From NCBI RefSeq assembly GCF_024345995.1, contig NZ_JAGQCE010000007.1, positions 1 to 64,000 of the forward strand: DNA of 64,000 nucleotides, read 5' to 3'. Shown piece after piece: positions 14,885-18,438 of this stretch; the first letter of the stretch is position 1, and the number at the start of each line of letters is the position of its first letter. Origin of the DNA: Synechococcus sp. Cruz-7E5. GTDB taxonomy: Bacteria > Cyanobacteriota > Cyanobacteriia > PCC-6307 > Cyanobiaceae. The position numbers and the translations under genes were made by a program. The notes under the pieces were generated by a model that searched no databases, had not been told where the DNA came from, and worked only from the letters and a program-made list of their open reading frames with translations.

Positions 14885-15061
14885 TCAGCCTGATTCAGTG
14901 AGAGCATGGCGGATGGTGATCAATAACCGCTCAAAACCATCGCTGTCCTCCAGCCCCTTCCAGAACCACTGGGTTTCAGGATTGCACTGCTCCACCTGCT
15001 CCCTGAGGTCTGCCGGCAGGGCAGACCAATCAGGAAGGTGGGGCAGCTCAGGGCAGCTCAT
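14885..15061 (-). CDS. Small acidic hypothetical protein (58 aa)
   Basis: Translation of the minus strand from the ATG at 15061 gives MSCPELPHLPDWSALPADLR, then EQCNPETQWFWKGLEDSDGF and an end in ITIRHALTESG. Codons are GC-ending and the composition is protein-like (Trp, Asp, Glu and Leu in a balanced pattern). The direct repeat GGGCAGCTCA just inside the start creates a second possible Ser-Cys-Pro-Glu-Leu. No domain is recognised. It lies between the cNMP protein and the DUF2092 pair, all on the minus strand. Confidence 0.5.
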   Translation of the reverse strand: MSCPELPHLPDWSALPADLREQVEQCNPETQWFWKGLEDSDGFERLLITIRHALTESG

Positions 15062-15076
15062 GGCGGGCCGATGGTT

Positions 15077-15283
15077 TCAGCAGTCGTAGACGCCAACGGC
15101 ACAGCGACGCACGGTGCGGCGGCCCACTCCGGCCACGCTGACGGGCGTGAGCGGACGGCCTACGCGGGCCTGCGCCGACGGCACCAGGGCATTCAGGAGT
15201 TGACCTGGGAGGGTCAGCAGCGGGCCTGAGCCAGCCAGGGCCAGGGCAGCAAGCAGAGCAGCAGTCTTGCGGGTGGTCGTCAT
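15077..15283 (-). CDS. Small secreted protein downstream of DUF2092 gene (68 aa)
   Basis: The ATG at 15283 overlaps the stop of the upstream DUF2092 gene, and a near-perfect AAGGAGGA ribosome site sits six bases ahead inside that gene. The N-terminus is a signal peptide (MTTTRKTAALLAALALAGSG), with likely cleavage near AQA. The mature part is short and basic (GVGRRTVRRC) with two cysteines near the end (RRCAVGVYDC). I recall similar small secreted proteins next to DUF2092 genes in proteobacteria. Function unknown, but coupling suggests the two products work together outside the cytosol. Confidence 0.7.
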   Translation of the reverse strand: MTTTRKTAALLAALALAGSGPLLTLPGQLLNALVPSAQARVGRPLTPVSVAGVGRRTVRRCAVGVYDC

Positions 15284-16110
15284 GGAGTTCCTCCTTGAAC
15301 GAAGTGACTGGGCAGTTCGCCCATGGACTTGATCGTCTTCAACTCATCCTTGCTGATGGCCCTGGCCCCCTGGGGTGGCACAAAAGTGAAGTTTTGGCCG
15401 ATAGCCGCCGATCCCGTCTGAAAGTTGCTGATCTGAACCCTGTACTGAGGTGAGCCAGGCACCGCCGTAGAGGTGATCATGTAGCGGCAGGGATAGGGGC
15501 GCTGTCCCTGGGCAATCCAGATCTGGAAATCTACATCCTTTTTGCGGAACGCAAGGTGATCACACTCCACACCACCAACCACGCCGCTGCCTAGATCCTT
15601 GACATCCGTGACGCCCTCGGTGAGTTCGGCGTAGGCCTTCGGCAGCAGCAAATCAGCGGCGGGGAGAGGCCTGCGGTACTTGTCCTTGAGCTCATCCACC
15701 AGGGTTTCGATCGTGCCTTTGAACGGAACCTGCATGTAGACGTTGGCCCTTTTGCCCAGCAGGGTGAAAGTCGAGCCATCGAAGACCGTTTCGATGTCGG
15801 CGAAACCGGTGGAACGGGTGGAACGGATGCGACCGGGGCGAGTCAGCGACACCGTTCCAGAGCTGGCCAACGTGAGTCGTTGCTGTTCCGTGGTAACGAC
15901 ATCAAGATCGGCGTCGTAACGGAATGACATGGCCTGCTGAGCCGCCATGTAGGTGGTCATCCCCTTGAGCAACGCCAGGGCTTCAGGCTCTGCCGCGCTC
16001 GCCCCGGGGAGGCCAACCGCCCCTGCAGCAATAGCAAGTAAACCTGCACAGGCTCCAGCACGGAGGCCACGGCCAGACTGGTTGAACACTCTCAAAAATC
16101 TTCTTGACAT
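15280..16110 (-). CDS. DUF2092 family secreted protein (LolA-like fold expected)
   Basis: I choose the ATG at 16110 because AAGGAG lies 13 bases upstream; an ATG at 16137 would add nine residues. The N-terminus is a signal peptide ending near ASAAE. The mature domain follows the DUF2092 pattern: early MTTYMAAQQAMSFRYDAD, then repeated beta strands (RLTLASSGTVSLTRPGRIR), FDGSTFTLLGKRANVY, GVECDHLAFRKKDVDFQIWI and YRVQISNFQTG. The family is predicted to bind hydrophobic ligands in the periplasm like LolA/LppX. It forms a two-gene operon with the small secreted protein. Confidence 0.8.
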   Translation of the reverse strand: MSRRFLRVFNQSGRGLRAGACAGLLAIAAGAVGLPGASAAEPEALALLKGMTTYMAAQQAMSFRYDADLDVVTTEQQRLTLASSGTVSLTRPGRIRSTRSTGFADIETVFDGSTFTLLGKRANVYMQVPFKGTIETLVDELKDKYRRPLPAADLLLPKAYAELTEGVTDVKDLGSGVVGGVECDHLAFRKKDVDFQIWIAQGQRPYPCRYMITSTAVPGSPQYRVQISNFQTGSAAIGQNFTFVPPQGARAISKDELKTIKSMGELPSHFVQGGTP

Positions 16111-16209
16111 TATTCTCGATTGACTCCTTGAGGGCATGATGACCCTGGCCTCAGTGGAACACTGTGAGCGGAGTCAAGCTCAGCCTAGGCCGCTGGAGCG
16201 CCCCGCCAA

Positions 16210-16226
16210 CAAAATGCTGCATTTTG
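16210..16226. promoter_or_regulatory. 17-bp perfect palindrome upstream of DUF2092 gene
   Basis: The arms CAAAATGC and GCATTTTG flank a single central T, about 100 bases before the DUF2092 start. A symmetrical AT-rich site of this size is typical of a dimeric repressor or activator operator. No candidate regulator gene is adjacent. Confidence 0.45.
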
Positions 16227-16227
16227 G

Positions 16228-16276
16228 TGAAATAAAGAAAAATGTTCGCGATGAATGAAACCTGTTCATCGCGAAC
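16228..16276 (-). terminator. Intrinsic terminator on minus strand without an obvious upstream gene
   Basis: GTTCGCGATGAA (16244-16255) and TTCATCGCGAAC (16265-16276) form a perfect 12-bp stem with a nine-base loop. Read on the minus strand it is followed by ATTTTTCTTTATTT, a good terminator tail. The neighbouring gene at 16742 runs the other way, so any transcript ended here would start within 16277-16741. Confidence 0.6.
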
Positions 16277-16741
16277 GCATCGGCTGGCAGTTTCTGGTTG
16301 CGCCTGCGAACCGTGCGTGCCGGCCCGGTGTTGATGGCTGCAACAACTCCCATTGAAAATTGCAGCAGGGCAGCAAACAACCAAACTCTCAGTACTCCTG
16401 CAAATGCCGAAGACCTCGTCAAAGTTGAGACATTCGATGATCGGCCATGCAGGCTCAGTTGCCGCCCTTAATTCCTGCGTCATGACTGGGCCCATGCCAT
16501 CAAGTGTCTTCGCTGATGTCCTGAGAGCTTTCACCCATTCCTCCGCCAACACCTTCCTGTGATTCTGATCAAAAGCCAAGGAGCACCTGCGACCATCCGG
16601 GCAACCCTTCCGCTCACCCCGTCCAAGCTGGCCCTGGCAGATGTTCTGAGATTGGTGGGCCAATGCCCATCTGATGTGGGCCGGTACTCCCTTGAGTAGA
16701 CCAGTGCGCGACACCATGAAGGATCAAGGGGGCCGATCGCG

Positions 16742-17512
16742 ATGGTGATGCGCCGCTTGGGCATGCTGCTGAAGCTGGTCCTGGTTCTGGTGCCCCTGGT
16801 AGCACTCAAGGTGCTGGCCATGGCCCAGGGCTGGGAGGTGCTCGCGGCCACACCCCTGTTCGCCGGATTGATCACCTCCAATGTCTTTCTGATCGGCTTC
16901 CTGTTCAACGGCGTGCTCACCGACTACAAGGAAAGTGAGAAGTGTCCCGCCCAGCTCGCCCAGACCCTGTTGAGCCTGGTTGCGGAGTTAGAGGCGCTGC
17001 GCTGGGCACGGCCAGAAGCCGACCCGTCAGCGGCCCTGGCGACCCTGGCTCAGCTCGGGCCAGGCTTCCTGAGCTGGTTCCATGGCACCACCTGCTCCAA
17101 CGAGCTGTTCGAGCTGATTGATCGGCTCAATGCCGACCTGGCTCAGCTCCGCGACAACTGTGAGTCACCCTTCATGACACGGTTGCTTCAGCAGCTGGCT
17201 TCGCTTCGGAGCCAGCTGCTGCGCATGGAGACGATCCGTTCGATTCCCTTCGTCCCCACGGTGTACTGGTTATCAGCCACCAGCACCACCGTGTTGTGCG
17301 CCGGCCTGGTGCTGACCCACATGGAGGGCTGGGCGGAGATCTTCTTCTATTTCGGTGCGATCGCCTTTCTGATGGTGTTCATCCTGCTGATGATCTGGGA
17401 TCTGGACAATCCCTTCGGCCATGGCGATTTCTCCTCCTGCGAGAACATCAGCCTGGCGCCCCTGGAGCGGACGCTGGCCCGGATCATCAACCCCCAGAAC
17501 CCCGAGGGTTGA
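16742..17512 (+). CDS. DUF4239-like (bestrophin-like) membrane protein
   Basis: The 256-aa protein has two N-terminal hydrophobic segments (LLKLVLVLVPLVALKVLAMA and the stretch after TPLFAGLITSNVFLIGF), a helical soluble middle (about residues 65-165) and two C-terminal helices (SATSTTVLCAGLVL, IFFYFGAIAFLMVFILLMI). It ends near DLDNPFGHGDF, which matches the DUF4239 signature of bacterial bestrophin-like proteins. No transport activity can be assigned. A small membrane ORF follows. Confidence 0.65.
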   Translation: MVMRRLGMLLKLVLVLVPLVALKVLAMAQGWEVLAATPLFAGLITSNVFLIGFLFNGVLTDYKESEKCPAQLAQTLLSLVAELEALRWARPEADPSAALATLAQLGPGFLSWFHGTTCSNELFELIDRLNADLAQLRDNCESPFMTRLLQQLASLRSQLLRMETIRSIPFVPTVYWLSATSTTVLCAGLVLTHMEGWAEIFFYFGAIAFLMVFILLMIWDLDNPFGHGDFSSCENISLAPLERTLARIINPQNPEG

Positions 17513-17560
17513 GGGGTGGCGGGCCGCGCTCCGGCAGCATGATCTCCCGCACCTGGCTCG

Positions 17561-17692
17561 ATGGCTTCACGCCGCTGCAATCCCTGGCCAATACTGGCCC
17601 TACTGCTCCTGGGAGTGGGGCTGGCGGTGCAGGTATTTCACGGGCAGAAGGGCACCCAGCGCGATCCCCGCCGGGAATTGCGGAAGTTCTGA
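17561..17692 (+). CDS. Very small single-pass membrane protein (43 aa)
   Basis: Read from ATG 17561 the product is MASRRCNPWPILALLLLGVG, then LAVQVFHGQKGTQRD and an end in PRRELRKF. It has one hydrophobic helix of about 16 residues, a short positive N-terminus and a strongly positive tail. This layout resembles small thylakoid or plasma-membrane peptides, but I cannot name it. It lies 48 bases after the DUF4239-like gene. Longer overlapping frames here are less protein-like. Confidence 0.4.
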   Translation: MASRRCNPWPILALLLLGVGLAVQVFHGQKGTQRDPRRELRKF

Positions 17693-17751
17693 TCGCTGGG
17701 GGCGAGGGCAAGCGACCCTGATCAACTGAATCTTGCCCTCTTCTCCTTGCG

Positions 17752-18063
17752 CAGGTTTTCCGCCGAGAGCTGCACCATCTCGGCGGCAAAGCGCTCCAGC
17801 GAATCGATCGTGTTCAACAGTGGCCGGCGGAACTCAAGGCATGGTTTATTCACCCGTTCGTCTTGTTCGACCAGCTGATGAGTGCCCGACACCACCTCTG
17901 CCTCTGGCAAGAACAACCGTCCCATCGCATGGGAACTACCCGCGCGGCCATTTCACGATTGGAGAGCGGAAGAAAGCATGAGCTCTGCCTGGGCCTTCTG
18001 TGCCGCTATGCGGAGGTCGTCAACTTCGAGCTGCCGGTGGCCATCGAACTTCTGCCCCACTGA
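17752..18063 (+). pseudogene. Relic of a HigA-type XRE antitoxin (HTH)
   Basis: The frame ending at 18063 contains MGTTRAAISRLESGRKH, the recognition-helix region of XRE/HigA antitoxins, then LLCRYAEVVNFELPVAIEL, which fits the usual end of such proteins. The preceding helix is eroded (HHLCLWQEQPSHR where TQEQLA-type residues are expected) and no proper start is seen; TTG 17863 is the best in-frame candidate. In-frame sequence further upstream (from about 17752) reads as an odd leader. No partner toxin gene is intact nearby. It lies just beyond the 3' end of the tmRNA gene. Confidence 0.6.
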
Positions 18064-18077
18064 CCCTGGCCATCGCC

Positions 18078-18103
18078 AATAAAATGGGGGCCTTCCAGCC
18101 CCC
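18078..18103 (-). terminator. Terminator of the tmRNA gene
   Basis: On the minus strand GGGGGC (18103-18098) pairs with GCCCCC (18091-18086) around a six-base loop and is followed by ATTTTATT. It directly follows the coding piece of the permuted ssrA gene. Confidence 0.8.
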
Positions 18104-18350
18104 GTGAGTCAATTGGGTGATAAGGCTGACTTACCCCATCTCCCTAAGGAGTCAGGCGGCCACAGGGGCGGGCTGACGGGAGAAAGCAACGATGTTGTTC
18201 GCTGTTACGGATTTGCTCTTACCGAGCAGGCTTCAGTCACCCTCCTCATACCCCGTCGAAACCATTGCAGCCCCGTGAAGTGGAGCTGAGCGGAATCGAA
18301 CCGCTGTCCGAAGAACCGGTGTGAGCCACCTAGTCCGCCCGAAGACGGAC
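18104..18350 (-). ncRNA. ssrA: Two-piece (circularly permuted) tmRNA
   Basis: On the minus strand the acceptor piece comes first (about 18350-18281). Its T arm is AGCGGTTCGATTCCGCT and its 3' end is CAGCTCCA. Six bases later the coding piece starts at 18274 with GGGGCTGCAATGGTTTCGAC. The two ends form a seven-pair acceptor stem with a G-U third pair, the alanine identity mark; CCA is not encoded. The tag frame runs from GCG at 18202 to TGA at 18152-18154 and encodes ANNIVAFSRQPAPVAA. tmRNA with SmpB frees stalled ribosomes and tags the unfinished protein. Split tmRNAs are known from alpha-cyanobacteria; the outer 5' limit is estimated. Confidence 0.95.
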
Positions 18351-18438
18351 AAATGCATTGTGGCACCTGCGGCTGCTGAGCGCCCACCGCCGGGCAGGTG
18401 GGAATCCCCGAACCGAGGCCGAAGGCCACCATGGAGCG

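Follow-up and report, generated by a model that had tools for sequence, protein, structure and literature searches.

The minus strand upstream of the DUF2092 gene of Synechococcus sp. Cruz-7E5 carries a hairpin that resembles a transcription terminator, at a place where no protein gene is recognised directly upstream of it on the same strand. Which transcript, if any, would end there? We addressed this question within the window, that is the whole stretch of 64,000 nucleotides analyzed here, and by comparison with related genomes.

A hairpin with a T-rich tail on the minus strand

The hairpin occupies 16244-16276. Read along the minus strand, the 5’ arm (16276-16265) is followed by a loop (16264-16256) and the 3’ arm (16255-16244), forming a stem of 12 perfect pairs with a 9-nt loop. 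A T-rich tail is present on the minus strand only (16230-16243, ATTTTTCTTTATTT) and is nearly unchanged in the relatives J7-Johnson and 1G10 described below; the U-tract directly 3’ of the stem, ATTTTTCTT, has 7 T in 9 positions. When counting perfect stems of 12 bp or longer with loops of 3-12 nt we found four in the 64-kb window, and judging from the printed flanks only the hairpin at 16244-16276 has a T-tail. Thirty dinucleotide shuffles gave two such stems altogether (mean 0.07), none of them with a T-tail. A strict terminator scan of the 64 kb returned two sites, this hairpin and the end of the tmRNA, while five shuffles returned 0, 0, 0, 2 and 0. A stock terminator scanner does not list the hairpin because its loop limit is 8 and the loop here has 9 nt. 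Together with its flanks the hairpin folds with a z-score of -2.3 (4 of 200 shuffles were equally good). Within the window the plus-strand RNA folds slightly better (-18.5 kcal/mol) than the minus-strand RNA (-16.3 kcal/mol). The own genome holds a single copy, allowing up to 3 mismatches, which rules out a repeat family.

The initial annotation of this DNA had described a perfect 12-bp stem with a T-rich tail on the minus strand and had read it as a terminator of that strand. Stem, tail and shuffle comparison agree with this description, and the terminator reading is also supported by folding in J7-Johnson and 1G10. Judged from its sequence the hairpin is likely a minus-strand intrinsic terminator.

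Conservation of the hairpin in related genomes

A search of 99 genomes with the DNA of 16140-16760 gave matches in 4, one of them the own genome. Two congeners match over most of the length with 91% and 89% identity. These are Synechococcus sp. J7-Johnson (J7) and 1G10, and both carry the hairpin at the same place. The fourth genome, from the same family, matches the last 73 bases only, including the start of the bestrophin-like gene. When 400 genomes of the family were searched with 16200-16600 (E ≤10), the matches listed span the full length only in the own genome, J7 and 1G10; the remaining listed ones are shorter than 40 bases, the best spanning 29 bases (E 8.8e-4, genome G372).

In J7 and 1G10 the minus-strand RNA keeps 11 of the 12 stem pairs, two of them as G-U, and the outermost pair is lost; as DNA the palindrome is broken at 3 of 12 positions. 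At two positions, substitutions common to both relatives make G-U pairs out of G-C pairs in the minus-strand RNA, and the plus-strand RNA has A-C mismatches there. The minus-strand RNA folds at -10.6 (J7) and -12.4 (1G10) kcal/mol, the plus-strand RNA at -5.6 and -4.5 kcal/mol. This strand asymmetry rests on two substitutions, and by our own estimate chance would give the same result about one time in four.

A decaying gene and a fast-changing interval upstream of the hairpin

The initial annotation had found no protein gene supported in 16277-16741. This holds on both strands for 16277-16590, but what follows to the right is the remains of a dead gene on the plus strand. In 1G10 this gene is intact: it lies on the plus strand, encodes 187 aa and starts with an ATG after AAGGAG at the position equivalent to 16591 (L004:1952-2515). 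The window retains a relic of this secreted-protein gene at 16591-16700 (plus strand); AAGGAG is kept ahead of it at 16578-16583 and the ATG is lost, three bases being missing including two of the start codon. About 640 bp are missing in both the window and J7, a gap that takes in most of the gene along with part of what follows it. The 198-aa frame of 1G10, which includes 11 codons before the ATG, served as a query: its residues 2-38 were matched in the window and its residues 1-47, with one stop, in J7. The protein match of the relic ends at 16672, beyond which scraps resembling the last codons of the gene are recognisable by eye only. Because pieces of the gene are left over, we infer a deletion in the window and J7 and not an insertion in 1G10.

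The 1G10 gene looks like a real gene, since tblastn of its protein matched 14 plasmid records; the eight of these 14 that were listed belong to Sinorhizobium and Bradyrhizobium and show 46-62% identity. Thirteen of the 14 records come from genera which we take to be alphaproteobacterial, and one is from Photobacterium. The comparison set contained two non-cyanobacterial DUF2092 loci only, those of Methyloceanibacter and Sinorhizobium, and as both of them belong to the bacterial group in which most relatives of the relic are found, there is a hint of gene transfer. We rejected a mobile or phage origin of the interval, whose DNA matched no phage or plasmid DNA; viral contigs contained no relative of the 1G10 protein. 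A search of 292 genomes of the phylum gave no match and carries no weight, as the sample holds no genome known to match, and PDB gave no match beyond a chance-level one (E 0.68).

The stretch 16277-16590, upstream of the relic gene, holds no supported gene. The drop in GC content that the initial annotation reported for the interval was confirmed but is modest, as 200-base windows have values of 0.51-0.57 and the surroundings about 0.60. Compared to J7 the stretch 16277-16590 shows 26 differences in 311 positions (8.4%) plus 8 gapped ones, and compared to 1G10 39 in 313 (12.5%) plus 1 gapped. This divergence is close to the synonymous one of the two flanking genes, for which dS is 0.091 and 0.070 (J7) and 0.234 and 0.101 (1G10). 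In four genes further left dS is higher, at 0.16-0.41 (J7) and 0.27-0.51 (1G10); because divergence of the stretch is below these values, mild constraint is possible. The least conserved part of 16100-16630 adjoins the hairpin, where the 40-column windows that start at 16260 and 16280 show 62-78% identity across the three species; the one at 16260 takes in half of the hairpin. The stretch that changes fastest before the deletion immediately precedes the hairpin in the minus-strand direction.

Candidate reading frames were rejected on both strands. The minus-strand ORF 16151-16717 has pN/pS values of 1.05 and 0.84, one stop in 1G10 and single-base indels in J7. This ORF and its 1G10 and J7 counterparts gave chance-level matches at most in Pfam, NCBIfam and PHROG, and the 1G10 minus frame found nothing at E ≤0.001 outside the three species in 201 family genomes (best 0.006). 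Plus-strand frames of 16280-16590 show pN/pS of 0.56-1.49 and all have stops in the window. A minus frame interrupted by 5 stops had values of 0.29 (J7) and 0.56 (1G10), which we read as small-number noise.

The next intact gene encodes a bestrophin-like membrane protein (16742-17512, plus strand; PF14023, E 3.6e-05, below the curated cut-off) and is conserved in J7 and 1G10. It contains a further perfect 12-bp inverted repeat at 17189-17221 without a T-tail. The tmRNA follows on the minus strand at 18087-18366, where the cyanobacterial and the permuted tmRNA models of Rfam both match, and has its terminator-like hairpin at 18103-18086.

Does the terminator end a small RNA?

The initial annotation had proposed that the hairpin ends a small RNA and that its transcript can only begin in 16277-16741. 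The latter is too strong a claim, because antisense starts within the bestrophin-like gene (16742-17512) or read-through from the tmRNA (18087-18366) could also feed the hairpin. The former could take the form of a young, dedicated minus-strand small RNA which starts within 16277-16600 and exists only in the clade of the three species. Such an RNA would be expected to look like this locus, a strong terminator that lacks a supported coding gene ahead of it, and the only other site of the strict scan indeed ends the non-coding tmRNA. Moreover, the interval is kept in three species and the minus strand of 16228-16430 folds with a z-score of -2.2. However, the segment beside the hairpin is the least conserved, and across the body of the putative RNA we did not find conservation above neutral, given 8.4% and 12.5% divergence plus indels. 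A comparison for covarying stems, which the initial annotation had called for, found compensatory changes in 0 of 57 predicted pairs, although three sequences give it low power. In Rfam, three hits at the gathering threshold lie in the window and none in the interval, and the relaxed threshold added one chance-level hit nearby (viral snoRNA, E 0.87); the other congeners have no DNA match. We found no minus-strand sigma-70-like promoter site in the interval, with scans that are insensitive here: this is weak evidence because the consensus scan also misses the proposed DUF2092 promoter. Conserved -10-like hexamers in 16277-16590 amount to a single weak one, compared to 1.8 expected from column shuffles. 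No transcript map of the J7/1G10 clade was apparent from titles in the literature searched. Given the fast divergence by the hairpin, the lack of compensatory changes and the dead gene at the right, the small-RNA proposal is left unsupported, and we consider a dedicated RNA of this kind unlikely, though still a serious contender.

A more specific and more speculative version would be that decay of the plus-strand gene supplied the raw material for a new clade-specific regulatory RNA on the minus strand and that the terminator was perfected in the lineage of the window. If the J7/1G10 state is the older one, all three stem changes in this lineage would lead from a wobble or mismatch to a Watson-Crick G-C pair. 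We give this scenario a small chance. Should an RNA be found in the interval, it would exemplify the birth of a new small RNA in a decaying intergenic region.

To gauge the frequency of orphan terminators we ran a looser terminator scan over 464 kb of the own genome (about 15%), made up of the window and 20 further stretches of 20 kb each. Of the 62 sites, 31 fall within crudely called genes, 15 lie at gene ends and 9 next to an opposite-strand neighbour; 4 are far from any same-strand gene and 3 are undecided. Since the gene calls are rough, the survey says only that orphan terminator sites are not rare. Scans of the same 20 stretches for tRNAs and with Rfam returned tRNAs and one cyano-S1 leader. 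An orphan terminator in raw sequence is to be taken with caution as weak evidence for a small RNA. Comparison with near relatives showed that a dead opposite-strand gene accounts for part of the seemingly empty interval, and that the remainder changes roughly like neutral sequence.

The DUF2092 gene and its likely promoter

Downstream of the terminator the DUF2092 gene (PF09865, E 8.6e-63) is located at 15280-16137 on the minus strand, with an ATG at 16137 or 16110. It is followed by two short minus-strand ORFs of 68 aa (15077-15283) and 58 aa (14885-15061), which are conserved as proteins (pN 0.03-0.04 vs pS 0.13-0.37) and look like real genes; Methyloceanibacter and Sinorhizobium likewise have the 68-aa ORF after DUF2092. 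Ahead of DUF2092 the sequence varies among congeners in the manner of an insertion/deletion hot spot (16140-18087; L010-L014).

DUF2092 was matched in seven of eight congeners, namely J7, 1G10 and five others, G006 being without it. We compared nine upstream regions: those of the window, of the seven congeners and of SynAce01. The motif CTA[AG]GCTG occurs at eight of the nine loci. Five of the six loci lacking the hairpin show TTGCC[AG]-N16-TA[AG]GCT; the exception is SynAce01, whose upstream region has neither a -35-like nor a -10-like box. This full arrangement is absent from the window, J7 and 1G10, which keep the -10-like TAGGCT and have a degenerate -35 (TTGGCG in the window, the weaker TGGGCG in J7 and 1G10). 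In the window the likely promoter spans 16182-16209 on the minus strand, consisting of TTGGCG at 16209-16204, a 16-nt spacer and TAGGCT at 16187-16182; a consensus promoter scan covering 16182-16209 does not list it. The strip 16111-16243 changes slowly, with 5 differences in 133 positions compared to J7 and 8 in 133 compared to 1G10.

Because the shared promoter-like box (16187-16182) is downstream of the hairpin, the DUF2092 start site is probably past the hairpin, which would leave the latter outside the 5’ UTR. The initial annotation had named conservation placing the hairpin inside this 5’ UTR as grounds against the small RNA, and the comparison does not show this either. It might still be argued that the hairpin acts as an attenuator within a long DUF2092 leader with a promoter to the right of 16276, since DUF2092 comes next on that strand, no supported gene separates the two, and this synteny is kept in three species. 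We regard such an attenuator as quite improbable. Within 600 nt upstream of DUF2092 no comparable terminator was found in the five other congeners and SynAce01, with CZS48M showing one weak unrelated candidate (-9.0), so that the hairpin is present at three of the nine loci compared; in addition the box from which we infer the start site lies downstream of the hairpin.

Least probable is that the hairpin reflects an operator palindrome in the DNA, or the remains of a terminator left by a lost minus-strand gene and now without a role: a perfect 12-bp inverted repeat could serve as an operator and the upstream sequence of DUF2092 does vary among congeners, but in J7 and 1G10 the palindrome is broken while the minus-strand RNA pairing is mostly kept, there is no second genomic site at up to 3 mismatches, and the open minus frame evolves at the pN/pS values given above (1.05 and 0.84).

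Proposed insulation of the likely DUF2092 promoter and comparison with known systems

The explanation we favor, by a modest measure and from sequence evidence, is an ordinary intrinsic terminator that shields the DUF2092 promoter from upstream transcription within a decaying intergenic region. The hairpin lies 34 bp upstream of the -35-like box. Polymerase would enter on the minus strand from the right, coming from antisense or stray starts in the intergenic region, the relic or the bestrophin-like gene, or alternatively by read-through of the tmRNA. It would then make the 12-bp hairpin and the U-tract and be released before crossing the DUF2092 promoter. What is observed are the hairpin, its tail, the strand asymmetry in the relatives and the position relative to the shared -10-like box; beyond these observations we presume that termination takes place in vivo, that the box is a promoter and that the terminator is not fed by a small-RNA gene of its own. 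The contrast between the slow strip 16111-16243 and the faster 16277-16590 supports insulation, as do the dead plus-strand gene and the lack of a supported minus-strand gene. Counting against it are the weak -35 in the window, which is weaker still in J7 and 1G10, the boxless SynAce01, the blindness of the consensus scan to the box, the small number of substitutions behind the strand asymmetry, the slightly better folding of the plus-strand RNA in the window and the possible mild constraint on 16277-16590. According to one report, cyanobacteria are without Rho, and canonical intrinsic terminators close 22% of the transcription units of S. elongatus PCC 7942 (PMC13289151). With Rho absent from the phylum, insulation is the simplest use of the terminator, and a new kind of system is not required.

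A leader attenuator likewise has its hairpin on the coding strand upstream of the gene, as seen here with DUF2092; the present hairpin differs in lying upstream of the likely promoter and in not being found at the other DUF2092 loci compared. Cyanobacterial small RNAs such as Yfr1, Yfr2 and Yfr10 would also end in such a hairpin. The interval differs from these three RNAs in having no Rfam match and in being found in three species only, while Yfr1 and Yfr2 are described as almost universal in cyanobacteria (PMC6778093). Compared to an intrinsic (Rho-independent) terminator, the hairpin differs in its 9-nt loop and in the lack of a recognised gene directly upstream on the same strand. It shares with this class a perfect stem containing G-C pairs, followed by a U-rich tail on one strand, and a folding energy under -10 kcal/mol.
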